NCBI RefSeq assembly: GCF_000013385.1
Contig: NC_007760.1
Span: forward strand, 3,756,001 to 3,820,000
DNA length: 64,000 bases
From: Anaeromyxobacter dehalogenans 2CP-C
Lineage (GTDB): Bacteria > Myxococcota > Myxococcia > Myxococcales > Anaeromyxobacteraceae
Reading direction: 5' to 3'
Positions within the stretch are counted from its first letter, which is position 1; each line of letters begins with the position of its first letter. Under the pieces are notes generated by a model. That model was given only the letters and a program-made list of their open reading frames with translations, was not told the origin of the DNA and made no database searches. Below are positions 33,863 to 50,826 of this stretch, in pieces. A program made the translations under genes and the position numbers.

Positions 33863-34768
33863 GTGACGACCGACGTCGGCGGCCAGCGCGCGCTCTCGAC
33901 GTACCGCGCGGCGCCGTTCCGGCCGCCCGCCTGCGCCGGCGCGGTCTACCCCGACGCCCCCGGCGCGCTCCGCCGCGCGCTCGACCGCTGGCTGGCGCTC
34001 CCCGCGGGCGCCCCGGCGGCGCCGCCCGCCCCGCGCGGCGTCGTGGTCGCGCCGCACATCGACTACGCGCGCGGCGCCGCGGGCTACGCGCACGCGTACC
34101 GGGCGCTCGAGGCGAGCCGCGCCGACCTGTTCGTGATCTTCGGCACCGCCCACGCCACCCCGCCGCGCCCGTTCACGCTCACGCGCCTCGACTACGGCAC
34201 GCCGCTCGGGCCGGTCCGCACCGACCGCGCGCTGGTGGACGCGCTCTGCGGGGCGCTCGGCGAGGACGCGCTGCTCGGGGACGAGCTCTGCCACCGCGAC
34301 GAGCACTCGATCGAGCTGCAGGCGGTGGTCCTGGCGCACCGGCTGCGCCGGCCCTTCACCGTGCTCCCGGTGCTCTGCTCCGCCATCGGCCACCTCGCCG
34401 ACCCGGCCGCCGCGACCGCGCCGTTCCTCGACGCGCTCGCGCGCGCGGTGGCGGGGCGCAGCGTGTGCTGGGTGGCCGGCGCCGACCTCGCCCACGTCGG
34501 ACCGCGGTACGGCGACGCCCGGCCGCCCGCGCCGGCCGAGCTGGCGGCGCTCGCCGCGGCCGACCGGCGGACGCTCCGCTACGTGGAGGCCGGGGACCCG
34601 GCGGGCTTCCACCGCGACGCCGTCCGCGACGGCGCGCGCCGGCGGCTCTGCGGGATCGCGCCGATCTACGCGGCGCTCCGCTCGGCCGGCGCGGGCGCGC
34701 GGCTGCTCCACTACCAGCAGTGGACCGACGGGGTGGACTCGGTGTCCTTCGCCGCGGCCGCGGGCTGA
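33863..34768 (+). CDS. MEMO1-like protein (AmmeMemoRadiSam protein B family)
   Basis: A 301-residue protein of the MEMO1 family, related to extradiol dioxygenases. Family features are AGAVYPDAPGALRRAL at the N-terminus, VVVAPHIDYARGAAGYAHAY, VIFGTAHATPPRPFTLT, the DELCHRDEHSIELQAVVL block and VAGADLAHVGPRYG. Metal-site histidines (PHID, GTAH, EHSIE, ADLAH) are present. In bacteria it is usually found beside AMMECR1 and a radical-SAM gene (AmmeMemoRadiSam); neither is here, so it is an orphan copy. The start is a GTG without a strong ribosome site. Exact biochemical role is unknown. Confidence 0.9.
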   Translation: MTTDVGGQRALSTYRAAPFRPPACAGAVYPDAPGALRRALDRWLALPAGAPAAPPAPRGVVVAPHIDYARGAAGYAHAYRALEASRADLFVIFGTAHATPPRPFTLTRLDYGTPLGPVRTDRALVDALCGALGEDALLGDELCHRDEHSIELQAVVLAHRLRRPFTVLPVLCSAIGHLADPAAATAPFLDALARAVAGRSVCWVAGADLAHVGPRYGDARPPAPAELAALAAADRRTLRYVEAGDPAGFHRDAVRDGARRRLCGIAPIYAALRSAGAGARLLHYQQWTDGVDSVSFAAAAG

Positions 34769-34771
34769 GCC

Positions 34772-34969
34772 CTAGATCTCGCCGCCCCCGTGCGCGTCCT
34801 CCTCGCCCGCCGCCTCGCCGTACTCGATGGCGCAGCGGGGGCAGAAGGCGTTCGGCGCGGACGCGCCGGGCACGGCGATGGTGTCCCCCTCGACGCCGCA
34901 CACCTGGCACACGCCGGCGATCACGACCTCGCCGCGGTCCTGCGGGCTGTTCTTGGTCGGCTCCCTCAT
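34772..34969 (-). CDS. Small zinc-ribbon protein coupled to the RelA/SpoT-like gene
   Basis: A 65-residue protein with two Cys pairs, C21-X2-C24 and C43-X2-C46, forming a probable zinc ribbon, then an acidic Glu/Gly/His tail (EEDAHGGGEI). No family recognised. Its ATG overlaps the stop of the upstream gene (ATGA, 34966-34969) and AGGTGG precedes it, so translation is coupled to the RelA/SpoT-like protein. That linkage suggests the two act together, e.g. as a regulator or RNA-binding partner; this is inference. It converges with the MEMO1-like gene, 3 bases apart. Confidence 0.7.
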   Translation of the reverse strand: MREPTKNSPQDRGEVVIAGVCQVCGVEGDTIAVPGASAPNAFCPRCAIEYGEAAGEEDAHGGGEI

Positions 34970-36078
34970 GATCCACCTCGCCGTCTGCGCTTCGGCACCA
35001 CCAGGCCACGCGAGAGGCGCCGGAGCACGCGCTTGAGCTGCCGGCGCTTGTACCGCTCGTGCGACGAGTCTCCCGCCTCGTTCGCCTCCGCGGTCGCGCG
35101 ATCCACCACCTGGAACTCCACCAGCGAGAACACGATCCGCCCCAGCTCGTCGGCCATGGGATCGAGCGGCGGCAGGAGGTCGTCGATGCGGACCGGCAGG
35201 TCCACCACGAAGTTCAGCACCCGGTAGCCGTGGCCGCTGAACTCGTTGCGCGGCTCGGAGGGATCGCGCCGCTCGAGGTCGGGCGGGAGCTGCAGCTGGC
35301 CGGACAGCTCGGCGCCGCGCGGGTGCCGCTTCAGGAGGTCCACGAAGCGGACCAGGCTGTTCTGCGTCTGGCCCGGGACCGTGTAGTTGAACGGGAACAG
35401 CGTCCGCGTGAGGTGCCACACCACCGGCGCGATCTGCTCCGGGGTCTCGGTGACGATGCGGTAGCGCACCCGGTCGAAGATCTGCGCCGCCACCGACTCC
35501 TTCTTGGCGATGAGCTTCGTGACCAGCGAGCCGCGCGCCTTCACGCTGCCGGCGAACTCGAGGATGGGCAGCCCGCCCGCCTGCATGCGGGCCCCCTCGG
35601 CCATGATGCGGCGATCCACCCGCTCCGAGAGGTCGCTCTCGCGGATGGGCGTGCGGAACAGCAGCTCGCGCGCCTCCAGGTGGTGGATCACGTGCATCAC
35701 CTTGAGCACGACGCAGGCGATGCGCCGGAACTTCCGCGGCTCGGCCGCGCCGGAGGCGAGCAGGAACAGGTCCCGCACGTCGTCCGGCATGGCCACCGGG
35801 TCGGCCACGCGGTAGCCGAACGCGTGGCGCAGGTACTCGACTGCCTGGCCCAGGATCGCGCGCAGCCGGCGCTCGTCCCGCGGATCCTCCAGGTCGAACA
35901 GGTTCAGGCCGAGGAACGCGTCCACCTCGGCGGCGGTGGTGACGTCGAGGCGGCGCCAGTCCACCACCGAGCCGCCGCGCAGCACCAGCCGGAGCGCCTC
36001 CAGCTCGGCCAGCCCCATCTCCTCGAGCGGGCGGTAGAGAGCGCCCGGGACGGACGGCTGCTTCAGCTCGAAGGGCAT
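34966..36078 (-). CDS. Diverged RelA/SpoT-synthetase-like protein
   Basis: A 370-residue soluble protein I believe belongs to an uncharacterised myxobacterial family (TIGR04552, from memory). Read closely, its C-terminal 200 residues follow the (p)ppGpp-synthetase pattern: K180-X3-S184 (SVKARGSLVTK, where the family has GRxKxxxS), D202 in IFDRVRYRIV, GY 284-285 (GHGYRVLNFVV), E321/Q323 in VEFQVVD, and H340/Y343/K344 in SSHERYK. The usual Arg of RxK is absent (Ser178) and there are insertions around 230-280 and 297-315. The N-terminal 170 residues lack the HD hydrolase motif. It may be a synthetase acting on another substrate or a binding-only relative. The ATG follows GAGGAG. Confidence 0.7.
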   Translation of the reverse strand: MPFELKQPSVPGALYRPLEEMGLAELEALRLVLRGGSVVDWRRLDVTTAAEVDAFLGLNLFDLEDPRDERRLRAILGQAVEYLRHAFGYRVADPVAMPDDVRDLFLLASGAAEPRKFRRIACVVLKVMHVIHHLEARELLFRTPIRESDLSERVDRRIMAEGARMQAGGLPILEFAGSVKARGSLVTKLIAKKESVAAQIFDRVRYRIVTETPEQIAPVVWHLTRTLFPFNYTVPGQTQNSLVRFVDLLKRHPRGAELSGQLQLPPDLERRDPSEPRNEFSGHGYRVLNFVVDLPVRIDDLLPPLDPMADELGRIVFSLVEFQVVDRATAEANEAGDSSHERYKRRQLKRVLRRLSRGLVVPKRRRRGGS

Positions 36079-36272: not shown

Positions 36273-38090
36273 CTAGAACTTGATCGGGAACGTCACGTCG
36301 GAGCGGCCGCTCTTCGACTTCGGGAACCTGGTGCCCCGGAGCACGCCCGACAGGCACTGGGCGAGCGGGCCGGAGGCGTACTCCGGCGTGGCGCACTTCG
36401 CGTTCTGCACCGACCCGTCGGGGCTGATGCTCCACCGCATCTTGAGCACGCCGGTGGCGGCAGGGTCCCGCGTCTTCTGCTCCTGCACGCACTGCTGCAG
36501 CGAGGAGACGCGCCCGAGGATGGTCTCGTTGACCTGCGAGTCGGAGACGCGATCCGGCAGCGCGCCCCCGCCGGGCGCCGGCGGCACGTACACCGAGCGT
36601 GCGCCCGGCTTCGTCCCGCCGAGCGCCGCGTCGAGCGCGGCGTCGTTGCTCTCGAAGTCGAGGACGGAATCGCGCTTCCGCGGCGCGGGCGCCGGCGCGG
36701 AGTCGGCCTTGGCGACGCGGGTGGGCTCGCGCACCGTCCGCTCCGGCGCCTCGCGCCGGGCCGGGCGGGCCGGTGCGGGCTCGCGCCGCGCGGGCGCCTC
36801 CGCGACCTTGCGCGCCGGCTCGGGGGCCGGCGCCGCCTTGGCGGGAGCGGGCGCGGGTGCAGCCGCCGCCGGCGCGGGCTCGGCGGCGGCCGGGGCCGCC
36901 TCCGCCTTCGCGACCACCGGCTCGGCCGCCTGGGCGGGGGCCGGCGCCGGCGCCTGGGTCGTCGCCGCCGCGGGCAGCGCGGCCGTGGGCTGCGGGGCCG
37001 CCGGCTCGGGCCGGGCCGGCGCGGTCGCGACCGGCGCGGAGGCGGCCGGGCTCGCCGGCGCGCGGCCGAGGAGCCAGTAGCCTGCGCCCGCCGCCGCGAC
37101 CACCGCCACCGTCGCCACGGCGCCGAACACCGCCGCGCGCGAGGCGGAGCGGCGGTTCCGCAGCTCCTCCGCGCCGCGCGCCACCGACGAGCGCCGCTCG
37201 ATCTTCTTCTCGCCGGTGGTCTCGAGCGCCTTGATGGGCAGCGGCACCGCGCCGGTGGGATCCACCCCGCCGCCGTCCGGCAGGTCCATCGAGTCCATGA
37301 GCGACTTCACGCTGCCGTTCGCCGGCCGCGCCGCGGCAGGCTCCGGCGCGCGAGCGGCGAGCTCGTCGCTGGCGAGCGCGGCGAGCGCCGACGCCCCCAC
37401 CGGCTTCCAGTCCACGTCCGCGCCGGGCGCGGGCGACGGGGCCGGCGTCGGCTCCGGGGCGGCCCGCGTGGAGGCGGACGCGGCGAACGGCGCCGGCGTG
37501 CGCGACGGGCGCGCGCCCCGCGGGATCGGCGACAGGTACGCGGCCAGGTCCGGGACCGCGGACACCGCCGCCCAGTCGCCCATGCCCGGGCGCCACACCA
37601 GCGAGTCGGGGCCGACGTCTCCGCCCTCCCACTTCTTCTTCACCTCGAGGAGCGGCAGCGGCCCGACCTGCGCCTGGCCGATGGCCACGTACCACTCGGT
37701 GGCGGGCAGCTCGGCCGCGGGCGCCGCGGACGCGGCGGCGATGCGCGCCTGCTCCTCCGGCGTGGTCTCCTGGGTCGCGTCGGGATCCGGCCCGGGCGCC
37801 GCCACGCCGGCCGGCGGCGTGTCGCCGAACGCGTGGTCGAACGCCTGGCCCAGCTCGGCGTCGAGCCCGCCCTCCGGGGCGGCGCCGGCGGGCGCCGGGG
37901 CCCCCGCGGCGCCGTCACCGGCCGCCGCCGTGGACGCGGGCGTCTCCGGCGCGACGGCGCCGTTCTCCGCGGCCCGCCGGACCCGGATGACGTTCCCGCA
38001 CTTCTTGCAGCGCACCTTGACGCCGTTCGGACCGACCTTGTCGTCCGAGATCATGTACTGAGCGTCACACCGCTCGCAGCCGAATTTCAT
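36273..38090 (-). CDS. gltJ: Adventurous gliding motility protein GltJ (AgmX)
   Basis: A 605-residue inner-membrane protein of the gliding machinery. Residues 1-39 are an MJ0042-type zinc ribbon (C5, C8, C28, C31), which in Myxococcus GltJ contacts the polarity GTPase MglA. Residues 131-190 are a GYF-like domain (TEWYVAIGQAQVGPLPLLEV). A single membrane helix (AVFGAVATVAVVAAAGAGYWLLG, ~315-340) is followed by a long Pro/Ala-rich periplasmic segment that can span the periplasm, and by a C-terminal AgmX/PglI TonB-like domain (VNETILGRVSSLQQCVQEQ to DVTFPIKF). The order is exactly that of GltJ. It lies 57 bases after gltI on the same strand and ends the cluster. Confidence 0.93.
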   Translation of the reverse strand: MKFGCERCDAQYMISDDKVGPNGVKVRCKKCGNVIRVRRAAENGAVAPETPASTAAAGDGAAGAPAPAGAAPEGGLDAELGQAFDHAFGDTPPAGVAAPGPDPDATQETTPEEQARIAAASAAPAAELPATEWYVAIGQAQVGPLPLLEVKKKWEGGDVGPDSLVWRPGMGDWAAVSAVPDLAAYLSPIPRGARPSRTPAPFAASASTRAAPEPTPAPSPAPGADVDWKPVGASALAALASDELAARAPEPAAARPANGSVKSLMDSMDLPDGGGVDPTGAVPLPIKALETTGEKKIERRSSVARGAEELRNRRSASRAAVFGAVATVAVVAAAGAGYWLLGRAPASPAASAPVATAPARPEPAAPQPTAALPAAATTQAPAPAPAQAAEPVVAKAEAAPAAAEPAPAAAAPAPAPAKAAPAPEPARKVAEAPARREPAPARPARREAPERTVREPTRVAKADSAPAPAPRKRDSVLDFESNDAALDAALGGTKPGARSVYVPPAPGGGALPDRVSDSQVNETILGRVSSLQQCVQEQKTRDPAATGVLKMRWSISPDGSVQNAKCATPEYASGPLAQCLSGVLRGTRFPKSKSGRSDVTFPIKF

Positions 38091-38147
38091 GTGCCAACCC
38101 GCCCAGATCCTAGGTTTGCCTGCTCCGCACCGTCAAGGACGCCCCGC

Positions 38148-41100
38148 TCACGCCGGCACGACGCAGGAGAGGCCGAGCTTCTCCCGGAGCGTCGCATACT
38201 CCTCCGAGACGCAGAACGTCGCCAGGTCGCGCAGGCGGGTCTCCTCCCGCAGCTTCGAGACCTGTGGCTTCTCCGCCCCCGCCGCCCGCCGCACCACCTC
38301 GAGGTCGCCGGCGAGCAGCGCGCCGGCGCGGTTCGAGGTCAACTCCGCGCCGTCCAGGTACGACCGCACGTCGCCCGGGTGCTGCACCTCGCAGTAGCTC
38401 CGGGCCAGCAGCTTGAGCGTGTTCTTGCGCACGCCCTCGGGCAGCGTGCGCTCCAGCTCTCGCTTCAGCTTCTCCACCAGGTGCGGATCGGCGGTCACCA
38501 CGAAGCGCGAGGTGCCCACCGAGCACGCCGCCTGGAACACCAGGTCGAGCTGGTCGTGCGGCATGAGCCGCGCGAGGTACAGCTCGGGGCGCGCGAACGC
38601 CATCGCCTTGCCGATCGCGAACCACAGCTCCTTTTTCGGCGCCTCCTCGAACAGCTCGTCGGAGGCGACGAGGCCCGCCGGGTCGGTGGGCACGATCGCG
38701 AGCTTGGCGGCGGCGCCGGACTTCCGGAACAGCCGGAGGCCCTTGAAGCCGAGCGTGCGCTCCACGTACTTGAACATGTTCGCGAAGAAGAGCATCGAGC
38801 CCTGCACGTCCAGCTCGTCCTTCTTCGGGTTCAGCCCGAGGTCCTTGTCGCGCTGCAGGAACAGCGGGCGCGCGTGGACCGCGAGCAGCGTCATGATGTC
38901 GGCGAGCGGGCCCTTCACGCGCTCGTGGAGCAGCAGCGCCCAGAGCGCGTCGTCGAGCGGGCGGCTCGCCTGCTCGCGCGCGAACTTGCGCAGGCGCGCC
39001 ACCACCTGCACCTCCTCGCCGTCGGTGGCGCCGAGCAGGTGCACGAGCACCTGCGCCGCCGAGTAGGCCTGGTCGTACTCGCGCCGGGAGGCGTGCAGCT
39101 TCACCAGCGCCGCGGCCGGCTTCTGCGTGCGGCTCCCGCCGCGCAGGAGCTGCCGGTACGCCGCCACCGCCTCGGCCTCCTCGCCCGGCTTGCGCGCGGC
39201 GAGGTCGGCGTACAGCTCCAGCGACACCGCGTCGTCGGGGTCGGCCTTCGCCACCACCTGGTAGGCGAGGCGCGCGCCGTCGTCGTTGCGGAGCACGCTG
39301 CGGTACAGCTCGCCGACGGTCTTCCACAGCGCCAGGCGGGCCTGGGCCACGTCCGGCGTCTTGGGCAGCCGCTGGATCATGCGCAGGTAGGCCTGCTCCA
39401 GCTCCTGCCAGCGCTTCCCGCGGGTGAGGGTGTCCTCGATGGCCGCGAACGCCTGCACCAGCCGCGGGTTGCGGTCGAGCGCGCGCTCCAGCTCGGCCAG
39501 CGCCGCGTTCTCGTCCTTGACCTCGTCGCGCAGCACCTCCGCGCGCGCCAGGTGGAGCCGGGCCGCGCGGACCGGGTCGGCCTGCACCTCGGGCCGCGCC
39601 ACCATCTGGCCGAGCACGTCGGCCGCCTTCTGGCCCTGGCGCGTCTCGCGGTAGAGGCCGAGCAGCGCCTCCGTCACCGGCAGGCTGGTGGGGTCGATGC
39701 GCGCCGCGCCCAGGAACGCGTCGATGGCCTGGTACGGGTCCTGGAGCTTGTCGCGGCAGGCCTCGCCGATGGCGACGAAGTCGTCGAACCGGGCCATTCC
39801 CTCGAGCAGCGGCAGCAGGCGCTGCCGCTGGTCCACCGCGCCCTCCCAGTCGCCCACCGCCTCGAGCACGCGCACCAGGCTGCGGCGCGACGGCTCGTGG
39901 TTCGTGTCGATCTCGAGCGCCTTGCGGAACGCGTTGGCGGCGCGGTCGAGCTGCCCCAGCTTCGCGGCGATCTCGCCGATCTGCCAGTGCGTCTCGACCA
40001 CCTCGAGGTCGGTGAGGCCGTCGCGGTGGTGGATGATCACCGCGGTGAAGATGCGCAGCGCCTCGTCCCACTCCTCCCGCCGGACGAGCAGGTTGCCCAG
40101 GCCCTCCAGCGCGGGCAGGTACGTCGCGTCGAGCTCGTACGCCCGGCGGTAGGACGCGAGCGCCTTGTCCAGGCGCCCGAGCTTCTCGGCCACGTAGCCC
40201 TGGCGGTAGCACTGGCGGCACAGCTCGCGCGCGTCGCCGGCCGAGTCCAGCACGCCCACGATCACGGCGAGCACGCGCTCCGCGTCGGCCCAGCGGGCCT
40301 GCGCCACGTAGATGTCCGACAGCGGGCGCGCCGCGTCCAGGTGGCCGGGGGTCCGCTTCAGCGCCTCCTCGTAGTAGCGGACCGCGCTCTCCCGGTCGTC
40401 GCGCTCCTCCTGGTAGACGCGCGCCGCCTCGGTGTAGAGCTCGGTCTTCTCCTGCACGTCGGTGGCGTAGCGGGCCTCGTCCACCAGCAGCTCGAGGTAG
40501 CGGTCGCGATCGCGCTCGCGCTCGGCGATGCCCTTCAGCGCGCGCAGCGCCGGGAGGTTGCCCGGGTCGAGCTGCAGGGCGCGGCCGTAGGCCTCCTTGG
40601 CCCCGGCCACGTCCATGAGCATGTCCTCGAAGATCGCGCCCATGCGGACCTGCAGGTCCACCGCGTCCCGCGAGCCGCCCGCCACCCGCGCCTCGCGGCG
40701 CAGCATGTCCAGCGCCAGGTTCCAGTTGCCGCTGTTCTCGTAGAGGCGCCCGAGCGCGCTCACCGCCTGGCGCGAGTCGGGGTCGAGCTGGAGCGCGTGG
40801 CTCAGCATGGCCTCGGCGCGGTCCACCCGCTGCAGCTCCTTCCACCAGATCTCGCCGATCGCCACCTCGAGCGCGACCTGCTCGCGCCGGTCCTGCACCA
40901 GCGAGACGTGGTGCTGCATGACGCTGATGAGCCGGTCCCAGAGCGCCTCGTCGCGGTAGAGCCGCTCGAGGTTCTTGATGGCCACGGCGTTGGCGCCGTC
41001 GATGCGCAGGACCGCCTCGTTCTTCTCGATGGCAGAGCGCGGATCGCGGAGCTTCTCGTCGTGGATCGCGGCGCTGCGCGACAGGACCCGCACCAGCTCG

Positions 41101-44100
41101 CGCGGGTCCTGGGTGAGCGCGATGAGCCGCTCGTAGACGCGGTTCAGCTCGGCGAAGCGGTCGAGCTTGGTGTACAGGCGCTCCAGCCCGGCCAGCGCCT
41201 CGGCGTTCCGGTCGTCCAGGCCGAGCACCGTCCGGTACCCCTCCACCGCGGCCTCGTCGTCGCCGATCTCGTTCTCGTGCAGCGAGGCGATCTGGAGCTG
41301 GTAGGCGATGCGCGCCTGGTCCGAGGCGGACAGGTCGCGCGCCCGGGCCAGCACGCCGGCCAGGTCGGCCCACCGCTGCTCGCGCCGCAGCAGCTCGGAG
41401 AGCGCCTCCAGCGCCGCCGGATCCGCGCCGTCCAGCTCCAGCACGCGCCGCAGCGCGCTCACCGCCTCCTCGACGTCGTGCAGCTCGCCGTCGTAGATGC
41501 GCGCCATCTCCAGCAGCGTGGCCTTCTTCTCCTCCAGCCCCGCCGCCGCCTCGAGCTTCTGCTCGAGCGTGATGACGAGGTCGCGCACCCGCCCGCGCCG
41601 CTTGAACAGCTGGGTGAGCGCGTCGAGCGCGTCCGGGCTGGCCGGGTCGGCCTCCAGCGCCTTGCGGTAGGCGGCCTCCGCCTCGTCCGCCACGTCGAGC
41701 CGCTCGTCGCGCACCTTCCCGAGGCGCAGCAGCAGCCGCGCCCGGACCATGCCCTTCGCGTCCTCGGCCACCTGCTCCAGCACCGCCGCGAGCTCGTCGA
41801 ACGCCTCGGTCTCGGCGGCCAGCCGCTCGGCCTCGGCGAGCGCCTCGGCGTCGCCCGGCCCCTCGGCCAGCGCGCGGCACCAGGCGAGGAAGCTCATCTC
41901 CTTCTGGCCGAGCCGCTTCTCGTGGACGCCGGCCACCTCCTTCAGCAGGGCGAGCTTCTCCGCCGGGTCCGGCAGGTGCGGCGCGAACAGGTCGCAGACC
42001 CGCGCCAGCGCGCGCCAGTTGCCGGCCGCCTCGTGCAGCGCCCGGAGCTGGTCGTAGGCGGTCCGGTTGGCCGGGTCGAGCTCCAGCACCTTGTCGAGCG
42101 CCGCCGCCGCGGCGTCGTTCCGCTTCTGCGCCCGCCACAGCTCGGCCACCGCCAGCCAGGCCGGCACCGCCTCGGCGGGGCCGCCCTCGGCGGCGAGCAG
42201 CGCGGCGCGGGCCTCGGCGGCGCGGACGCCGTCCTGGGCGGCGCCGCCCTGCCGGAAGATCTCCTCGACGCGGACGAGATCGTCCGCGGTGTGCGGCTCG
42301 ATGTCGAAGGCGAGCTTGGCCTGCTCCACCGCCTCGCGCTTCTGGCCGGCGCGCAGCAGCACGTCCGCGAGCTCGAGCCGCACGCGCTTCACGCCGGCCG
42401 CGTCCTCCTGGAGCGGGACCAGGCGCCGGTAGACGGAGACCAGCGCGTCCTGGTCGCCCTGGGCGGCGTGGATGTCCCGCAGCGCCTCGAGCGCGCGCCG
42501 GTTGCGCGGATCCGACTCCAGCACCGCCTTGTAGGACTGCACCGCCTGCGCGGCGTCGCCGAGCTTCGTGCCCAGCACGTTGCCCAGCTTGTCGTTCAGG
42601 CGCGCGATCTCGCGCCGGTCCACCGTGGCGGACACCCGCAGCCTGAGGTGCTGCGCCAGGTCCTGCCAGCGCTCCAGCCGCTCGTACAGGTCCTCCAGCG
42701 CGGCCAGCGCGGCCTCGTGGCGCGGGCGGATCCCGAGCAGCTCCTTCCACAGCGCCACCGCCTCGTCGAGGCGGCCCAGCTCGGCCGCCAGCGCGGCCAT
42801 GCGCGCCAGCACGCGCTCGCGGGCGGCCGGCTCCTGCGCGGCGGCGCGCTGCGCCGCCAGGTTCTGGAACAGGTCCTCGCGCCGGCCGGCGCCCTCGTAC
42901 AGCGCCTCGAGGGCCCGCAGCGACGGCACGTGGCGCGGGTCGGCCGCCACCGCCGCCTCGTAGGCCTCGGCGGCGCGGTCCGGCGCGGCGAGCCGCTCCT
43001 CGCAGAGCTGGCCCAGCCGGAACAGGAGCTGGACGCGCTCGGCGCCCTGGGCGGACGAGGCCAGCGACGACAGCGCGTCGGCGAGGTCCGGCCAGCTCTC
43101 CAGCTTCTGGTAGATGCGCTCCAGCGCGGGCAGCGCCGCCGGCGCGGCGGCCGGGTCGAGCGCCGCGGCGCGCCGCAGGAACTGGGCGGCGCGGGCCGGC
43201 TCGGCGAGGTGCTCCTCGTACAGGGCGCCGAGGCGCAGGGCCACCTGCGCGGTGTCGGCCGGCGCCAGCCGGTCCAGCTCGTCCTCGTAGATGGCGGCCA
43301 GCTCCTCCTCGTGGCCGCTCCGCGCCGCGAGCGCCTCCATGCGCGCGCGCACCGCCGCGTCGGCGGGGTCCTCGCGGAACGCCTTGCACAGCGCCAGGAA
43401 CGCGAGCGAGGGATCGCCGAGCCCCTTCTCGCGCAGCTCGGCCAGGGCCAGGTAGAGCGCCTTGCGCTCCTGCGGGTCGGGGCGCTCGCCGGCGCGCTGC
43501 TCCAGCACCGCCGCCTGGCGCAGCGGGTCGCCGGCCGCGGCGTAGGCCCGCTCCAGCGCCACCGCGGCGCGCGCGTTGCCCGGGTCCTTCTGCAGCATGG
43601 CCTCGAGCCGCGCCAGGGCCTCGGGGTGGTCCGGGCGGGCGCGCAGCACCTCCTCGTACAGCTCCAGCGCGCCCTCGCGGTCGAGGAGCCGGTGCTCCTT
43701 CAGCTCCGCCAGGCGCTGCCGCAGGACCCCGAGCACGTTCGCGTCGCCGGCCTCGGCCGCGGCGGCGATCTCGCGCGCGAGCACGTCGCCCAGGTCCACC
43801 CAGCGCTCCGCCTTCACGCACAGGCGATCCAGGCGGGCGAGCGCCTCGCGGTCGTCCGGCGACAGCTCCAGCAGCCGCTTCAGGCTCTGGATGGCGCCGG
43901 CCGCGTCGCCGAGCCGCTCGTCCTGCACCGCCGCCAGCCGCCGCAGCAGGTGGGCGCGGCCCTCCGGCAGCTCCTCCACCGCCAGGCCCCGCCGCAGCGC
44001 CTGCGCCAGCGCCTCGGGATCCGCGCCGGCCTCCAGCGCGTCGATGAGGCCGACCAGCGCCTCGCGGTCGTCCGGGGCGAGGTCGAGCACCTTCTGCCAG

Positions 44101-47100
44101 GCCGCGGCCGCGCGGGCCGGCTCGCCGTGCGCGAGCCGCGCGATGCGCCGCTGGTACTCGGCCCGGGCGACCGGCTCGCGGGCGCGGTCGGCGTGCTCCT
44201 CCAGCAGCGCGACCAGCTCGTCGCCCAGGCCCGCGGCCTGCGCGTGGCGCACCGCCAGCTCGAGCGACTCGGGCGCGTCCGGGTCCGCCGCGAGCGCGCG
44301 CGACGCGGCCAGGAACGCCATCTCGGCGTTGCGCAGCGGTCCGCCGTACACGTCGGCCACGCGCCGCAGCAGCGCCGCGCGCCGGGGCGGCTCGGTCTCG
44401 TTCGCGGCCCGCGCCTCCAGCGTCTCCACCACCTTGCCGTGCTCGCCCTCGGCCGCGTACACCGGCTCGAGCAGCAGCGCCGCCTCGAGCGCGGCCGGCC
44501 CGGTGCCGCGCGCCAGCTCCTCCAGCGCCGACAGCGCGGCCGGGTGGCGGGGCACGCGGTGCAGCACCTCGCGGTAGGCGACCAGCGCGCCCTCCGCGTC
44601 CGCCAGCCGCTGGTGGCGGATGCGGCCGAGCCGGAAGCGCAGCTCGGCGGCCTCGGCGACGAAGTTGGGCTGCCGGTCGGCCAGCGCCACCTCGCGGTCG
44701 AGGACCTGGACCAGCTCCTCCCAGCGCTCGGCCGCGCCGAGGAGCCGCCCGAGCAGCCGGAGCGCCTGCGGATCCTCCGGGTCCACCGACAGGATCTTCC
44801 GGTACGCGTCCACCGCGCCTTCGCGATCCGAGAGCTGCTCAGCCATGATCTTCGCCACCTCGAGCAGGAGTTCCTTGCGCGCCGCCGCCGCGGGGGCGAC
44901 CTCCGCGAGCCGCGTGAGCGTCCCGGCCAGCTCGCGGTGCGCGCCCATGCGGCGGTAGACGCGCGCCAGCGCGCCGAGCGTCTCGGGAGACGGCGCCGCC
45001 GCGGCCACCTCCTCGTACTGCCGGGCCGCCTCGGCGAGGTCGCCGAGCCGGTCGGCGCACACGGCCGCCAGCCGCCGCCGCGCCTCCAGCGCCGCCCGCG
45101 CCGGCAGGCCGGCCGCGAGCGCCACCCGCAGCGCCTCCGCCAGCTCGGCCCAGGCGCCGGTCGCCGCCGCGAGCCGCTCCAGGTCCGCCCGCGCCGCCGG
45201 CGCGTCGCGGCCCGCCCGCGCCGCGTCGGCCAGCTCGCGCACCCGCGCCTCGAACGCGCGGCGCCGGTCGCCCAGCCGCTCGTGCAGCGCGGCGATCTCG
45301 GCGAGCAGCGGCGCGCGCTCGGCCTCGTCGGCGCCCTCCAGCCGGACCTCGAGCAGCGCCGCGAGCCGGCCGGCGTCGCCCGCCGTGCGCAGGACGTCCT
45401 CCAGGAGCCGCGCCGCGCCCTCGCGCGCGTCCGGGCGCTTCAGCAGGCGCTCCAGGCCCGCCACCGCCTCCGGCTCGCGCGGGCGCTCGGCGAGCACCTC
45501 CGCGTAGCCCTCCACCGGCCGCCGCGGATCCGGGTCGGCCTCCAGGCAGGCCGCGCGCCGCAGCAGCGCCGCCACCCTGCGGTCCGGGTCGGCCCCGCTC
45601 GCCCGGGCGAGCGCCTCCAGCACCTGCAGCAGCTCCGCGGTCGCCGCCGCGGGCTCCGCGCCGGGCGCCCGCTCCAGCACGCGCGCGAGCCCCTCCAGCG
45701 CCTCCACCCGGTCCGGCGCCTCGCCGAGCACCGCGCGGTAGGCCTCGGCCGCGACCGACGCGTCGCCCAGCTGGTCCGCCACCACCGCCGCGTGCAGCAG
45801 GTGGCCGGCGCGCTCCTCGCCCTCCGCCAGCGCGGCGCGGCGGCGCGCGACCTCGAGGATCTCGCGCGCCGAGCGCGCCGCCTCGTGCAGCGCCGCGAGC
45901 GCCTCCAGCGCCTCGGCGTCGTCCGGCGCGAGCGCCAGCACCGCGTTCCACGCGTCCACCGCGCCCTGGCCGCCGGCGCGCGCCTCGCGCAGCCGCGCCG
46001 CCTGGCGGAGCAGGCCGAGCCGCTCCTCCGGGCCGGCCGCGGCCGCCGCCTGCTCGTAGACGTCGGGCAGCTCGTCCTCGGAGCCGGTCTCGCGCGCCAG
46101 GCGCGCCAGGTCCTCCTCGGCGCCGGCGCGGGACGGCCCGCCCTCGGCGAACGCGCGGCAGGCCGCCACCCAGGCCAGGCCCGGCTCGCCCAGGTCGCGC
46201 TCCAGGATCGCGCGCAGCTCCGCGTGCAGCCGGGCGCGCTCGCCCAGGTCCTCCACCGCCGCGAGCCGCGCCTCGCGCGCCGCCACCCGCCGGGCGTGCT
46301 CGCCGCCCTCGCGCAGCGCGGCGTCCGCGGCGTCGAGCGCCTCGCGCCCCACCGCGCCCGGGACCGCGGCCAGCTCGGCGAGCGCGTCGCGCACGTCCGC
46401 GCGCGACGGATCCCGCCGCAGCAGCTCGGCGTGCAGCGCCAGCGCGCCGGCCGGATCGCCCAGGCGGAAGCGCCGCAGCTCGGCCAGCCGGGCGGCCGCG
46501 TCCGCGTCGAACGCGCGGGCCAGCCGGCGCTCCAGCAGCGCGGCGAGCGCCTCGGGCCGGTCGAGGCGCTGGTAGAGCCGCTCCAGCGCCGCCGTCGCCT
46601 CGGCGTCCTCGGGCGCGAGCGCCGCCACCTCGGCCCAAGCCGCCGCCGCGCGCCCCGGGTCGCCGAGGCGCGACTCCGCCACCGCGGCCTCCTCGCGCAG
46701 CGCGTCCTCGCGCGCGGCCGGCGCGGCCTCGGGCATGGCGGCGAGCGCGGCGCAGACGTCGGCGAGCTCGCCCCAGCGCTCGCGGGCGCGGTGCAGGCGG
46801 CGCAGCGCGGCCAGCGCGTCGCGATCGCCCGGCGCCGCCGCGGCCACCTCGGCCCAGGCCGCCGCGGCGCGGTCGCGGTCCAGCCGGCGCTCGGCCAGCT
46901 CGGCGCGCTCGCGCAGGATCGCGAGGCGCCCGGACGCCGGCGCCGCGTCCACCAGCGCGTCGTGCACGCGGGCGCAGGCCTCCCACTCCTGGGCCTCGCC
47001 CGCCACGCGCCGCAGCTCGGCCCGCAGCTCCGCGTCCCCGGGCAGCTCCCGCGCGGCCGCCGCCAGGGCCGCGAACGCGAGCGACGCCTGCCCCAGCTCC

Positions 47101-50100
47101 TGCTCGGCCACGCGCGCGGCGGCGCGGTGCGCGGCGGCGCGGCCGCCCGGCTCCGGGTGCGCCCGGGCCTCGGCCTCCAGCGCCCGCAGCCGGCGCCGCG
47201 GATCCGCCTGCCCGGCCAGCGCGCGCGCGGCCATCACCACCGCCGCCGGATCCTCCGCCCCGAGCTGCTCCTCCAGCGCCGCGAGCGCGGCCGCGTCGCC
47301 CGGCGAGGCCCGCAGCGCGGCGGTCAGCCGCTCGACCGCGGCGCGCGCGTCGCCCATCCCGGCGCGGATGCGCGCGCTCTCCAGCGCGGCCCGGGACGCC
47401 TCGGCCGGCTCCGCCGCGGCCGCCGACAGCTCGCCGAGCGCGTCGGCCCGCCCGGCCTCGTCCCCGGCGGCGCCGAGCGCGCCGGCGAGCCGCGCCAGCA
47501 GGCGCGCGCGCTGCTCCGGGCCGCAGCGGGCCAGCGCCGCGCGGCAGACCTCGGCGGCCGCGGCGGGGTCGCCGAGCCGCTCCTCCAGCACCTCGGCACG
47601 CTGCGCGAGCAGCGCCACCTGCTCCGCGCCGGACGCCGCCTCGGCGCGCTGCGCCAGCAGGCGATCCGCGTCGGCCCAGCGCTCGGACGCGAGCGCGGCG
47701 CGGGTGAGCCCGGCCAGCACCGCCGGGTCGCCGGGCCGCAGCTCCAGCGCGCGCCGGAGCTGCGCGGCCGCGTCGTCGAACGCGCCCAGGTCCTCCTCCG
47801 CGGTGGCGGCGGCGCGGATCCGGAGCGCCGCCTCCTCCTCGGGCCGCCCGGCCAGCCGGCCCGCCACCTCGACCAGCAGCGCGAACAGCTCGCGGTGGGC
47901 GCCGACCTCGCGGGCCAGCGCCTCGCAGCGCGCGCGGGCCTCGGCGTGGTCGGGGCAGGCCCGCAGCGCCGCGGCCGCGGCGGAGAGCGCGCCGCGGCGG
48001 TCGCCCAGGCGCTCGGCCCGCGCGGCGGACGCGTCGAGCAGGTGGCGGGCGCGCTCGCGCGGGTCGGCGGTGGCGGGCAGCTCCTTCGCCACCCGCTCCA
48101 GCATGGCCGCCTGCCGCGCCGCGTCCCCGGCGGCGGCGTGCGCGCGCGCCAGGGCCTGCGCCACGCGCAGCGGCTCCGCGCCGCGCGCCAGCAGCCGCTC
48201 CAGGAGCGCGACCGCCTCGGCCCGCTGCGACGGGGAGAGGCCGCCGGCCTCGACCACGGCGAGCGCCACCCCGGCGGCGTCGGCGTGGCGCCCGAGCGGC
48301 TCGGCCAGCGCCTCGGCGCGCGCCAGCTCGATCGCGGCGCGCTCGGCGGGGCCCCGCGCGCGGGCCGCGAGCCGCGCCAGGATCGCGATCCGCTCCTCGG
48401 CCGCGCCCGCGCCGCCCTGCGCCTCGAGCGCGGCGTGCAGGCCCCACAGCGCCTCCTCGTCCTCGGGACCCTCGGCGAGCACCCCGCGCCACGCGGCCCC
48501 GGCGCGGTCCGGCTCGCCGGCCTCGGCCCACAGCCGCGCCAGCTTCGCCCCGAGCGCGCGCCGCTCGTCGCCGGCGGCGTGCTCGCGCCGCGCCTCGAGC
48601 TCGCGGGCCAGCTCCTGCTGCTGCCCCGCCCGCGCCAGGCACGACTCCAGCGCCGCGCGGGCGCCGCGATCCTCGGGGTCCACCTCGACCAGCGCGCGCC
48701 AGGCCCGGACCGCCTCCTCCGGCTGGCCCAGGTCGCGGTCCAGGATCTCGGCCACCCGCCGCAGCAGCGTCTTGCGCGCCTTGAGGTCGCCGTTCGCGGC
48801 GGCGGCGGCGGCGCGGTAGGCGCGCGCCAGCTCGGCGAACGCGTCCGCGCGGGCGGCGGCGCCCTCCATGGCCTTGCGGGTGGCGGCCCGGGACGGATCG
48901 AGCGCGAGCGCGCCCGCCAGCGTGCGCAGCGCGTCGCGCGGCCGCCCCACGTGCTCCTGCTGGATCTCGGCGAGCCGCTCGAGCAGCCGGACCCGCTCCC
49001 CCGGCGAGCGCTCGCGGCGCGCGGACAGCTCCAGCACGCGCGCGAGCGGCTGCCACTCGCCGGCCTCGGCGAGCAGCGGCGCCAGCGCGACGGCGGCGGC
49101 GGCGTGGCCCGGGTCGGCGCGCAGCGCCGCCTCGAGGTGGCGGCGGGCGCGGGCGGGGTCGCCCAGCTTCTCGCGCGCGAGGGCGGCGGCGCGCACGCGC
49201 AGCGGCGCGTGGGCGGGCTTCGCCGGCGCGGCGGCGAGGTGGCGCTCCAGCACCTCGAGCGCCTCCGCGAACCGGCCCGCGTCGAACTCGTGCTCGAAGG
49301 CCTGGAGGGCGGCGGTCTCGCAGGCCGGGTCGAGGTCCAGCGCGCGGCGCAGCGCCGCCAGCGCGGACTCCGCGTCCCCGAAGCGCACCAGGTCCACCCG
49401 CGCCATCTCGAGGTGGAGGGCCACCTGCGCGGCGCGGTCCCGCGTCTGGGCCGCGAGGCGGGCCAGCGCGTCGGCGTGGCCGCGGTGGTCGCCGCGCTCC
49501 GCCAGCACGCGCTCCAGCAGCTCCAGCGCCGCCGGAGCCCCCGGCGCGAGCGCCCAGGCCCGCTCGATCCGCTCCACCGCGCGGCCCGCGCCCTCCGGAT
49601 CGTAGGCGGCGTGGATCTGGGCGAGCCGGAGCTGGAGCGCCGCCGCGGTGCGCCGGTCGGACGCGCGCGTCGCCTCCGCCTCCACCCGGCCGGCCTCCTC
49701 GCGCCAGGCGCGCGGGAAGCCGCGCAGCCGCTCGCGCGCGGCGGCCGCGCCGGGCGCGGAGCGGTCGAGCGCGAGCGCGTCGATGAGCGCGTCGGTCGCG
49801 AGCGCGTGGTCGAGCGGCTCGTCCACCAGCGCGGTGCCCAGCCGCGCGTACTCGGCGGCGAGCGCGCGCGGCTCGGCGCCGGCGTCGCGCGCGCCGTCGA
49901 GCAGCCGCTTCGCCTGCGCGAAGCGGCGGAGCGCGCCGAAGCACTCCAGCGCGCGGGCGCGCGCCTCCTCCAGCGACGGGTCGAGCCGGTGCGCGCGCGC
50001 GTAGAGCAGCGCGGCCCGGTCCCGCCGTCCGAGCCGCTCCTCCTGGACCTTCGCAAGCCGGAGCGTCACGGCCGCGGCGGCGACCGGCTCAGCGGTGGCG

Positions 50101-50462
50101 GTGGCCTCGCGCTCCAGCGCGGCGGCGATCCCGGCCCAGTCGCCGCGCTCCTCGAGGAGCTCCACCAGCGCGCGAAGCGCGACGGGGTGCGCCGGCTCGA
50201 GCTGGAGGAGCTGGCGGTACAGGTCCTCCGCGCGGGCCACGTTGCGCAGCTTCCGGTGCGCGAGCGTGGCGGCCTCGGCGAGGAGCGGCCCCGGTCCGGG
50301 CGCGTGGCGCGCGCGCCCCTCGTACAGGGCGATCAGCTCCTCCCAGCGCGCGTCGCGCTCGTAAAGTCCCACGAGCGCGTGAAACGCCTCGTCGTCGCCG
50401 GGGGCCGCCTCGAGCGACTCGACGTGGGATCGGATCTGCTCGTCCAGGGAGGGTGCGCTCAA
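38148..50462 (-). CDS. gltI: Giant TPR-repeat gliding motility protein GltI (AgmK)
   Basis: A 4,104-residue protein made of roughly fifty TPR-like helical repeats, with recurring blocks such as ALxALExLYExxxRWxELAxVLxR and RLGDPAxAAxAYRxALxxDPxxxxA. The last ~380 residues (from about VHLLGATDGEEVQVVARLRKF) are non-repetitive and end SEEYATLREKLGLSCVVPA. Size, position directly before gltJ and repeat content match GltI/AgmK of Myxococcus (about 3,800 residues). There is no signal peptide, so it is probably cytoplasmic, a scaffold for the motility complex. The start is a TTG without a visible Shine-Dalgarno; a promoter at 50515-50544 lies 50 bases upstream. The antisense strand is also open for almost the whole length, a composition effect. 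Confidence 0.92.
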   Translation of the reverse strand: MSAPSLDEQIRSHVESLEAAPGDDEAFHALVGLYERDARWEELIALYEGRARHAPGPGPLLAEAATLAHRKLRNVARAEDLYRQLLQLEPAHPVALRALVELLEERGDWAGIAAALEREATATAEPVAAAAVTLRLAKVQEERLGRRDRAALLYARAHRLDPSLEEARARALECFGALRRFAQAKRLLDGARDAGAEPRALAAEYARLGTALVDEPLDHALATDALIDALALDRSAPGAAAARERLRGFPRAWREEAGRVEAEATRASDRRTAAALQLRLAQIHAAYDPEGAGRAVERIERAWALAPGAPAALELLERVLAERGDHRGHADALARLAAQTRDRAAQVALHLEMARVDLVRFGDAESALAALRRALDLDPACETAALQAFEHEFDAGRFAEALEVLERHLAAAPAKPAHAPLRVRAAALAREKLGDPARARRHLEAALRADPGHAAAAVALAPLLAEAGEWQPLARVLELSARRERSPGERVRLLERLAEIQQEHVGRPRDALRTLAGALALDPSRAATRKAMEGAAARADAFAELARAYRAAAAAANGDLKARKTLLRRVAEILDRDLGQPEEAVRAWRALVEVDPEDRGARAALESCLARAGQQQELARELEARREHAAGDERRALGAKLARLWAEAGEPDRAGAAWRGVLAEGPEDEEALWGLHAALEAQGGAGAAEERIAILARLAARARGPAERAAIELARAEALAEPLGRHADAAGVALAVVEAGGLSPSQRAEAVALLERLLARGAEPLRVAQALARAHAAAGDAARQAAMLERVAKELPATADPRERARHLLDASAARAERLGDRRGALSAAAAALRACPDHAEARARCEALAREVGAHRELFALLVEVAGRLAGRPEEEAALRIRAAATAEEDLGAFDDAAAQLRRALELRPGDPAVLAGLTRAALASERWADADRLLAQRAEAASGAEQVALLAQRAEVLEERLGDPAAAAEVCRAALARCGPEQRARLLARLAGALGAAGDEAGRADALGELSAAAAEPAEASRAALESARIRAGMGDARAAVERLTAALRASPGDAAALAALEEQLGAEDPAAVVMAARALAGQADPRRRLRALEAEARAHPEPGGRAAAHRAAARVAEQELGQASLAFAALAAAARELPGDAELRAELRRVAGEAQEWEACARVHDALVDAAPASGRLAILRERAELAERRLDRDRAAAAWAEVAAAAPGDRDALAALRRLHRARERWGELADVCAALAAMPEAAPAAREDALREEAAVAESRLGDPGRAAAAWAEVAALAPEDAEATAALERLYQRLDRPEALAALLERRLARAFDADAAARLAELRRFRLGDPAGALALHAELLRRDPSRADVRDALAELAAVPGAVGREALDAADAALREGGEHARRVAAREARLAAVEDLGERARLHAELRAILERDLGEPGLAWVAACRAFAEGGPSRAGAEEDLARLARETGSEDELPDVYEQAAAAAGPEERLGLLRQAARLREARAGGQGAVDAWNAVLALAPDDAEALEALAALHEAARSAREILEVARRRAALAEGEERAGHLLHAAVVADQLGDASVAAEAYRAVLGEAPDRVEALEGLARVLERAPGAEPAAATAELLQVLEALARASGADPDRRVAALLRRAACLEADPDPRRPVEGYAEVLAERPREPEAVAGLERLLKRPDAREGAARLLEDVLRTAGDAGRLAALLEVRLEGADEAERAPLLAEIAALHERLGDRRRAFEARVRELADAARAGRDAPAARADLERLAAATGAWAELAEALRVALAAGLPARAALEARRRLAAVCADRLGDLAEAARQYEEVAAAAPSPETLGALARVYRRMGAHRELAGTLTRLAEVAPAAAARKELLLEVAKIMAEQLSDREGAVDAYRKILSVDPEDPQALRLLGRLLGAAERWEELVQVLDREVALADRQPNFVAEAAELRFRLGRIRHQRLADAEGALVAYREVLHRVPRHPAALSALEELARGTGPAALEAALLLEPVYAAEGEHGKVVETLEARAANETEPPRRAALLRRVADVYGGPLRNAEMAFLAASRALAADPDAPESLELAVRHAQAAGLGDELVALLEEHADRAREPVARAEYQRRIARLAHGEPARAAAAWQKVLDLAPDDREALVGLIDALEAGADPEALAQALRRGLAVEELPEGRAHLLRRLAAVQDERLGDAAGAIQSLKRLLELSPDDREALARLDRLCVKAERWVDLGDVLAREIAAAAEAGDANVLGVLRQRLAELKEHRLLDREGALELYEEVLRARPDHPEALARLEAMLQKDPGNARAAVALERAYAAAGDPLRQAAVLEQRAGERPDPQERKALYLALAELREKGLGDPSLAFLALCKAFREDPADAAVRARMEALAARSGHEEELAAIYEDELDRLAPADTAQVALRLGALYEEHLAEPARAAQFLRRAAALDPAAAPAALPALERIYQKLESWPDLADALSSLASSAQGAERVQLLFRLGQLCEERLAAPDRAAEAYEAAVAADPRHVPSLRALEALYEGAGRREDLFQNLAAQRAAAQEPAARERVLARMAALAAELGRLDEAVALWKELLGIRPRHEAALAALEDLYERLERWQDLAQHLRLRVSATVDRREIARLNDKLGNVLGTKLGDAAQAVQSYKAVLESDPRNRRALEALRDIHAAQGDQDALVSVYRRLVPLQEDAAGVKRVRLELADVLLRAGQKREAVEQAKLAFDIEPHTADDLVRVEEIFRQGGAAQDGVRAAEARAALLAAEGGPAEAVPAWLAVAELWRAQKRNDAAAAALDKVLELDPANRTAYDQLRALHEAAGNWRALARVCDLFAPHLPDPAEKLALLKEVAGVHEKRLGQKEMSFLAWCRALAEGPGDAEALAEAERLAAETEAFDELAAVLEQVAEDAKGMVRARLLLRLGKVRDERLDVADEAEAAYRKALEADPASPDALDALTQLFKRRGRVRDLVITLEQKLEAAAGLEEKKATLLEMARIYDGELHDVEEAVSALRRVLELDGADPAALEALSELLRREQRWADLAGVLARARDLSASDQARIAYQLQIASLHENEIGDDEAAVEGYRTVLGLDDRNAEALAGLERLYTKLDRFAELNRVYERLIALTQDPRELVRVLSRSAAIHDEKLRDPRSAIEKNEAVLRIDGANAVAIKNLERLYRDEALWDRLISVMQHHVSLVQDRREQVALEVAIGEIWWKELQRVDRAEAMLSHALQLDPDSRQAVSALGRLYENSGNWNLALDMLRREARVAGGSRDAVDLQVRMGAIFEDMLMDVAGAKEAYGRALQLDPGNLPALRALKGIAERERDRDRYLELLVDEARYATDVQEKTELYTEAARVYQEERDDRESAVRYYEEALKRTPGHLDAARPLSDIYVAQARWADAERVLAVIVGVLDSAGDARELCRQCYRQGYVAEKLGRLDKALASYRRAYELDATYLPALEGLGNLLVRREEWDEALRIFTAVIIHHRDGLTDLEVVETHWQIGEIAAKLGQLDRAANAFRKALEIDTNHEPSRRSLVRVLEAVGDWEGAVDQRQRLLPLLEGMARFDDFVAIGEACRDKLQDPYQAIDAFLGAARIDPTSLPVTEALLGLYRETRQGQKAADVLGQMVARPEVQADPVRAARLHLARAEVLRDEVKDENAALAELERALDRNPRLVQAFAAIEDTLTRGKRWQELEQAYLRMIQRLPKTPDVAQARLALWKTVGELYRSVLRNDDGARLAYQVVAKADPDDAVSLELYADLAARKPGEEAEAVAAYRQLLRGGSRTQKPAAALVKLHASRREYDQAYSAAQVLVHLLGATDGEEVQVVARLRKFAREQASRPLDDALWALLLHERVKGPLADIMTLLAVHARPLFLQRDKDLGLNPKKDELDVQGSMLFFANMFKYVERTLGFKGLRLFRKSGAAAKLAIVPTDPAGLVASDELFEEAPKKELWFAIGKAMAFARPELYLARLMPHDQLDLVFQAACSVGTSRFVVTADPHLVEKLKRELERTLPEGVRKNTLKLLARSYCEVQHPGDVRSYLDGAELTSNRAGALLAGDLEVVRRAAGAEKPQVSKLREETRLRDLATFCVSEEYATLREKLGLSCVVPA

Positions 50463-50826
50463 GGTGGCTTCGCGGGGGAGTGAGGAACCGGAAAAAAGCG
50501 CCTGACGACGCGGAAGTATAGGGCGCTGTTCGCAGGAGGGTCAACGTTGTCCCGGCCGGATTCCCTTGCCCTTACGGGCATTTGACTACATTGCCCCCGG
50601 TCGCGGGCGGGGTGGCAGGAACCCGGGTGACCCAGGGCGAGGGGTCGTGGTGACCGTCCCTCGGCGGGACGGCTTTCGGGGCGCCGCGGCGCGTTTCCCG
50701 GCCAGATCGCGCGCTCGGCGGTGGCCGGCGCGACCGCGCAGGAGCGGCGATCGCGGGCGGCCGGCGCGCGTCTCGGGGCCGCGCGCGCGCGGCGCGGATA
50801 GCGCCCGATAGCAGCCCGCGATCGCC
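50463..50826. other. 364-base intergenic region before gltI
   Basis: Holds the gltI promoter in its left part. The remainder, 50545-50826, separates gltI from the end of the polyphosphate-type operon. I see no gene, tRNA or hairpin terminator there beyond generally GC-rich sequence. Confidence 0.55.
50515..50544 (-). promoter_or_regulatory. Sigma-70-type promoter for gltI-gltJ
   Basis: On the minus strand TTGACC (50539-50544) and TATACT (50515-50520) at 18-base spacing. The predicted start near 50508 gives a ~46-base leader before the TTG start of gltI. It makes gltI-gltJ a transcription unit of its own, separate from gltD-H. Confidence 0.7.

Follow-up and report, generated by a model that had tools for sequence, protein, structure and literature searches.

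A diverged RelA/SpoT-type synthetase of the TIGR04552 family beside gltJ in Anaeromyxobacter dehalogenans, with a zinc-ribbon companion in some lineages

The 64,000-nucleotide stretch of the Anaeromyxobacter dehalogenans 2CP-C genome analyzed here (the window) raises the question of what is done by a 370-aa protein encoded beside gltJ, and whether the small zinc ribbon encoded behind it is its partner. A sequence-only reading proposed a diverged RelA/SpoT-like synthetase coupled to the ribbon, being either a nucleotide synthetase with a different substrate or a toxin- or binding-type relative. The gene order is as that reading had it, with gltJ directly upstream on the same strand and the ribbon open reading frame (ORF) overlapping the synthetase stop by 4 bases (34966-34969):

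34966..36078, minus strand: TIGR04552-family protein, 370 aa with an ATG start (ORF; 378.9 bits; AlphaFold model and PDB matches)
35644..36033, minus strand: N-terminal helical domain of that protein, codons 16-145 (AlphaFold model of residues 16-150, pLDDT 84; best Foldseek E value 3.2)
34772..34969, minus strand: 65-aa zinc-ribbon protein with C21-X2-C24 and C43-X2-C46 (ORF; alignment of 11 homologues; found in 16 of 195 genomes)
36273..38090, minus strand: gltJ, the upstream neighbor (NF033761, 553 bits)

The 370-aa protein is organized as an N-terminal helical domain and a diverged RelA/SpoT-type synthetase domain. It matches the NCBIfam model TIGR04552 well above the cut-off of 125 bits, spanning positions 3 to 352 of 352, and the sister model TIGR04562 with 358.4 bits, also above cut-off; the descriptions of both families name neither a function nor any connection with RelA/SpoT synthetases. 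The TIGR04552 score, together with near-invariant motif residues in 66 aligned members, shows that the reading frame is not a product of chance. Pfam RelA_SpoT (PF04607) scores 13.8 bits, below its gathering score of 27, and matches 55 of the 66 family members at an E value of ≤1, weakly (the best is 6.9e-6), which may be why the relationship has been left unannotated; the missed gathering score is a limit of detection, to be weighed against the evidence of fold and motifs. A Pfam scan finds no HD, TGS, ACT, or any other domain above threshold in the protein, agreeing with the earlier statement that an HD domain is lacking, and finds no secretion domain. As far as these searches show, the family is a variant within the RSH synthetase superfamily whose relationship to RelA/SpoT has so far not been recognized: in the literature outside subscription papers, TIGR04552 is named in PMC9888234 alone, TIGR04562 and MXAN_4861 are not found, and no paper with both ppApp and Myxococcus is on this subject by its title. 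Myxococcus, Anaeromyxobacter, and Bdellovibrio go unmentioned in the main text of the 2011 RSH census (PMC3153485).

The predicted fold is that of the RelA/SpoT synthetases, as the sequence-only reading had anticipated. An AlphaFold model built from the 66-member alignment has a mean pLDDT of 88.1 and a pTM of 0.86, and all 40 of its Foldseek matches in the PDB at an E value of ≤0.001 are SAS, Rel, or RelA structures (the best E value is 2.2e-5); the TM-scores of these matches are low (0.24 to 0.30 on the query), which the insertions and the extra domain would explain. With VIA-align, SAS1 with pppGpp superposes at a Z-score of 14.2 over 144 residues (2.6 Å), and RelQ/SAS1 and RelP/SAS2 (5ded, 5dec, and 6ewz) share the fold at Z-scores of 12 to 14, followed by SaEAS (8vx3) at 8.8, CapRel at 8.4, and Tas1 (6ox6) at 7.8, with DNA polymerases at about 8. 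Among the sequence comparisons, a phmmer search of PDB sequences with the single protein gives only chance matches to cytochrome b562 (E values of 0.21 and worse) and was set aside, the family profile finds YwaC at an E value of 0.018, and hhalign against 13 synthetase domains from RSH proteins of the same phylum gives an E value of 0.0021, yet a probability of 13%. The profile alignment to these domains pairs the K-S-K residues, D202, R207, Y285, E321/Q323, E334/G336, and H340/Y343/K344. That the TIGR04552 protein is homologous to RelA/SpoT synthetases is firmly supported. When residues 16 to 150 are modelled by themselves, the N-terminal domain has no Foldseek match in the PDB better than the E value listed above; PDB sequence matches to it reach at best an E value of 0.44, and it is described here only as predicted to be helical.

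The active site illustrates both what is retained and what is unusual in this family. Conservation was assessed in an alignment of 66 members (116 matching ORFs, less 4 short ones, thinned at <88% identity; the others are 35 to 80% identical to the window protein) and in a wider set of 127 members (160 matching ORFs reduced to unique sequences of at least 250 aa, the window row being represented by the identical copy L001). Residue roles are those given in the texts on RelP (PMC5794853) and FaRel2 (PMC11782079), and H340 is paired with RelP His190 by motif order rather than by superposed coordinates. The features are as follows, with counts from the 66-member alignment:

35515..35541, minus strand: K-X3-S-X3-K, ATP triphosphate-binding motif, codons 180-188 (K180 66/66, S184 64/66, K188 66/66)
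35458..35475, minus strand: D-R-V-R-Y-R, Mg-binding Asp and unusual Arg at D+3, codons 202-207 (D202 65/66, R205 66/66, R207 63/66)
35248..35358, minus strand: insertion of about 37 residues before the acceptor (G-) loop, codons 241-277 (gap versus the RSH synthetase domain in the profile alignment)
35212..35247, minus strand: acceptor loop N-x-F-S-x3-Y-R-V-L-N, codons 278-289 (N278 66/66, S281 66/66, N289 59/66)
35131..35187, minus strand: second insertion, codons 298-316 (gap in the profile alignment)
35101..35118, minus strand: E-F-Q-V-V-D, catalytic Glu/Gln, codons 321-326 (E321, Q323, and D326 each 66/66)
35047..35061, minus strand: H-x2-Y-K, matching H-W-x-Y-K of RSH, codons 340-344 (H340 66/66, Y343 66/66, K344 64/66)

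The motifs occur in the order first read from the letters (K180-X3-S184-X3-K188, IFDRVRYRIV at 200-209, GYR at 284-286, VEFQ at 320-323, and SSHERYK at 338-344) and are conserved in orthologues, with the ATP and Mg residues kept in 64 to 66 of the 66 members; in the wider set K180 is present in 125, D202 in 124, and E321 in 126 of the 127. At residue 285, the base-stacking position of the acceptor loop, 58 of the 66 members have Tyr and 8 have Phe, and all 127 have one or the other. These near-invariant ATP and metal residues make catalysis likely. The two insertions and the replaced catalytic Arg of the sequence-only reading are also borne out: the insertions appear as gaps at about residues 241-277 and 298-316 relative to the RSH synthetase domain, and the Arg of the GR-x-K motif of RSH enzymes is S178 in the window protein.

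The donor side departs from the canonical arrangement in a consistent manner. The first adenine-stacking Arg (R78 of RelP) is absent from all 66 aligned members, in which it is replaced by Ser (39), Asn (15), or Gly (12), and is also missing from all 127; the window protein is therefore classed as a divergent superfamily member and not as a RelP/RelQ-type SAS. The second (R112 of RelP) corresponds to R207. Loss of the first goes together with the invariant Arg at D202+3, a position that is Ala or Gly in RSH enzymes and a pocket-lining Gly in FaRel2, and across the 127 members this position is Arg in 118, Gly in 7, and Ser in 2. On the acceptor side, N289 sits where RSH has His (Asn in 103, His in 12, and Gln in 6 of the 127), so that the window protein has V-L-N in place of the S-x-H acceptor motif of the (p)ppGpp-type RelP and RelQ; the PK motif of the acceptor loop is missing in its branch, and D326 is invariant within the stretch where RSH has QIRT, the R-T being replaced. 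Seven of the 127 members form a canonical clade (support of 1.0) with Gly at D+3 (Gly-x-Arg) and a Ser-x-His/Gln acceptor motif, but the family root next to RSH has support of 0.6 or less, and either type of active site may be ancestral. A few copies have diverged further. Two from the related genomes G167 and G166 (L180 and L181) have lost most catalytic residues, with Glu for both K180 and D202 for example, and by these substitutions are probable pseudoenzymes, so the protein can evidently persist without catalysis; genomes G068 and G066 hold extra diverged copies (L067, L187, L189, and L190) with Ala for S184, and an extra copy in G068 has a stop codon in its last third.

The best reading of these features is that the protein is probably a working 3'-pyrophosphokinase whose acceptor is non-standard and which, in genomes that have the zinc ribbon, is regulated by it. 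It is a chromosome-encoded member of the RelA/SpoT synthetase superfamily and most likely transfers pyrophosphate from ATP onto the 3'-OH of its acceptor. The donor pocket is rebuilt, with a near-invariant Arg at Asp+3 and without the usual first Arg, and the acceptor loop is altered by Asn for His in most members, a missing PK motif, and the two insertions. With both of these changed, the acceptor is probably not simply GDP or GTP. The altered acceptor and adenine residues are compatible with a changed substrate, and an unusual acceptor is plausible, although the case is weakened by the members with His at 289 and those with the canonical Gly at D+3. The leading guess is that the acceptor would be an adenosine-type nucleotide or a larger adenosine-ended molecule such as RNA. 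Sensing or recruitment of some kind is presumably the task of the N-terminal helical domain; the co-encoded ribbon would act as a dedicated regulator in some lineages, perhaps by covering the active site as pseudo-zinc-finger antitoxins do on toxSAS enzymes, and in lineages without a ribbon the enzyme would work alone.

Some active-site features recall the Apk/Tas1 (p)ppApp synthetases and exported alarmone synthetases. The text of PMC12226406 gives RYT and GxN in Apk2 for the AVR and SxH of RSH, and that of PMC12691689 lists R124/R330 and N169/N370 among the ATP-binding residues of SaEAS/Apk1, with D121 as the inactivating site, which places R124 at Asp+3. The Arg at Asp+3 and the Asn of the acceptor motif are thus common to these enzymes and to the window family (R205 66/66 and N289 59/66), this (p)ppApp-type signature being taken from the published text of the two papers and not from aligned sequences. 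There are also differences: Apk2 has Thr at Asp+5, where the window family keeps Arg; the Apk, Tas1, and exported enzymes are injected, phage borne, or secreted, whereas the window family is a phylum-wide chromosomal gene; and both SaEAS and Tas1 score below SAS1 structurally. Nor does the signature settle the acceptor, because the same texts (PMC12226406 and PMC12691689) report (p)ppGpp as a further product of SaEAS and as the specific product of VpEAS and AaEAS, and swaps in the syn motifs of Apk2 left its product unchanged (PMC12226406).

A simpler possibility is that the protein is an ordinary small alarmone synthetase, making (p)ppGpp from ATP and GDP or GTP alongside the bifunctional RSH of the same genome. 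The closest folds are SAS1/RelQ; RelQ/SAS1 and RelP/SAS2 share with it the K-x3-S-x3-K motif, the Mg-binding Asp/Glu, the acceptor-loop Tyr, and the ribose His; and the base-stacking aromatic residue and the clade retaining Gly-x-Arg and Ser-x-His/Gln motifs fit the same scheme. However, the window protein is 370 aa long versus about 190 to 200 in the matched RelQ/RelP chains, carries an extra N-terminal helical domain of about 130 residues, lacks the GR-x-K Arg, and has Asn for the acceptor-loop His and two insertions, including the one of about 37 residues ahead of the acceptor loop; with both S-x-H and PK replaced in its branch and the first adenine-stacking Arg missing, this possibility is somewhat unlikely. 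The long RSH (Rel) of the same genome has homologous synthetase motifs, but it is a separate gene (at G000:C1:2880257), and the window protein has no HD domain. PF04607 matches are found in 40 of 41 close relatives, nearly all of them the long Rel, and an HD_4 domain is present at the Rel gene in 21 of the 21 relatives searched. A dedicated hydrolase partner for the synthetase was considered and rejected for want of systematic pairing, because a second, separate HD_4 protein (PF13328) is above cut-off in only 6 of the 21 genomes, the own genome included. That genome's second HD_4 protein, which is small alarmone hydrolase-like, is at G000:C1:4466106-4466519 (plus strand), and its occurrence in relatives is patchy.

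The TIGR04552 gene is present in 157 of 195 genomes of the phylum of the window at an E value of ≤0.001 (153 above the family cut-off), and is usually single copy, with one copy in the own genome by profile search. A draw of 37 genomes around genome G198, taken as representing its phylum, has the family gene in 24. There is no match to the family among 72,556 plasmid records and no match in PADLOC; no relative was confirmed on viral contigs, PHROGs gave chance matches only, and a fold search of a viral library gave only weak RelA/SpoT-like matches (the best E value is 8e-4). A single match among 50,697 phage records, MW495066.1 (L157, MW495066.1:119573-128265, "Microcystis phage MaAM05"), was rejected as a phage-borne relative, as glyS, gatD, secF, and secDF flank its TIGR04562-type gene and it looks like bacterial chromosome. 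This distribution, with no plasmid match, speaks for a core gene rather than a mobile toxin.

Linkage to gltJ brings in a further explanation, that the protein is a non-catalyzing regulator that binds ATP and/or an alarmone and signals to a partner, perhaps the adjoining gliding machinery. In Myxococcus xanthus, cluster G1 of the gliding machinery includes GltI and GltJ, according to the text of PMC3169522. The synteny counts cover 69 loci, three of them from genome G068 and some at contig ends. Of these, 41 have GltJ upstream in the same orientation, several in genomes outside the class of the window, and 33 have the C-terminal part of a GltI-like TPR protein upstream; all 66 genomes with GltJ above cut-off (146 searched) also hold the family gene. 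The adenine-stacking Arg missing from every member and the copies in G166 and G167 without catalytic residues would also suit a binding role. On the other hand, the co-presence could reflect shared ancestry alone, gltJ is not found upstream in 28 of the 69 loci (some of which run off contig ends), and Bdellovibrio sp. NC01 has an annotated TIGR04552 gene (Table 1 of PMC9888234) though gltJ is reported missing from the Bdellovibrio cluster (PMC3169522, text). The Mg- and phosphate-binding residues K180, D202, and E321 are moreover each kept in at least 124 of the 127 members, and a purely binding function is unlikely. The gltJ linkage was likewise rejected as proof of a motility function and as the lead explanation, given the loci without gltJ and the confounding by kinship.

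The zinc ribbon is well conserved where it occurs, with its four Cys residues, G25, G28, P39, and E49 invariant in 11 aligned homologues. It is found in 16 of the 195 genomes, once in each, the same 16 being recovered with the single protein and with an 11-row profile, and in all 16 it is encoded on the same strand directly behind the synthetase gene, 38 to 187 bases past the end of the synthetase profile match. The proposal of a dedicated partner thus holds where the ribbon exists, by virtue of this strict adjacency, but does not extend to the family, as neither search detects a ribbon in 141 of the 157 synthetase-bearing genomes. The arrangement resembles toxSAS modules such as FaRel2-ATfaRel2 and CapRel, in which a synthetase domain has a small zinc-finger-type companion, and as described in the text of PMC11782079 some toxSAS enzymes are neutralized, in cis or in trans, by a pseudo-zinc-finger acting through a YXXY motif. 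The ribbon of this family carries C-X2-C pairs but no YXXY motif, and by analogy with those antitoxins it may perhaps regulate the synthetase through a comparable covering mechanism. A toxin-antitoxin pair, with a toxSAS that pyrophosphorylates tRNA or ATP and the ribbon as antitoxin, would account for the 4-base overlap with a small zinc-finger-type protein, for the precedent of pseudo-zinc-finger neutralizers (PMC11782079, text), and for the Asp+3 Arg and syn3 Asn found in Apk toxins, but is very unlikely for a phylum-wide, usually single-copy gene with no plasmid or PADLOC match whose companion lacks YXXY and is undetected in most genomes, and the toxin alternative of the sequence-only reading is not sustained. 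The toxSAS hallmark of an obligate co-encoded neutralizer is accordingly absent, with ribbons in 16 and synthetases in 157 of the 195 genomes, though a different or unlinked neutralizer may exist.

Returning to the pyrophosphokinase reading, the phylum-wide and usually single-copy distribution argues for a physiological role and not a toxic one. In the text of PMC11782079 and PMC12691689, it is chiefly toxins that are credited with making (p)ppApp and pyrophosphorylating tRNA. A tentative, more specific version, which the evidence favors less, is that the family might be a housekeeping signaling enzyme, core and non-toxic, whose 3'-pyrophosphokinase activity yields (p)ppApp or 3'-pyrophosphorylated RNA; the ribbon would be a switch in some lineages, and the genomic link with the gliding cluster would be of long standing. 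If so, these molecules would acquire a testable physiological role through a conserved chromosomal enzyme, usually single copy and with an active site related to that of the toxins, and NCBIfam families without a function would gain one. Myxobacteria are known for starvation-driven development and gliding. In Bdellovibrio, a single-base deletion in the TIGR04552 gene rose to high frequency in one evolved line out of six (PMC9888234), suggesting that it is probably dispensable in that strain; all six lines survived starvation better, and the text of that paper does not tie the gene to survival.

The surroundings of the locus have some further features. In the window, ffh and a Memo-like gene are downstream of the synthetase on the other strand; ffh is downstream in 34 of the 69 loci, on the opposite strand in 30 and on the same strand in 4, and the Memo/AmmeMemoRadiSam system protein B-like gene (33863-34768, plus strand), which is convergent to the zinc ribbon, is downstream on the opposite strand in 5. 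In a Myxococcus-like locus (L078, 4159-5821), gltJ and the family gene are separated by two small genes, coding for a 327-aa Cys-rich lipoprotein-like protein and a 160-aa protein with MORN-like repeats, as judged by eye. Upstream of gltJ in the window, in place of gltI, is a very long GltI-like ORF (38148-50462, minus strand; 4,104 aa), and antisense to it is a 4,216-aa open frame (37833-50483, plus strand) that is probably a by-product of high GC content.
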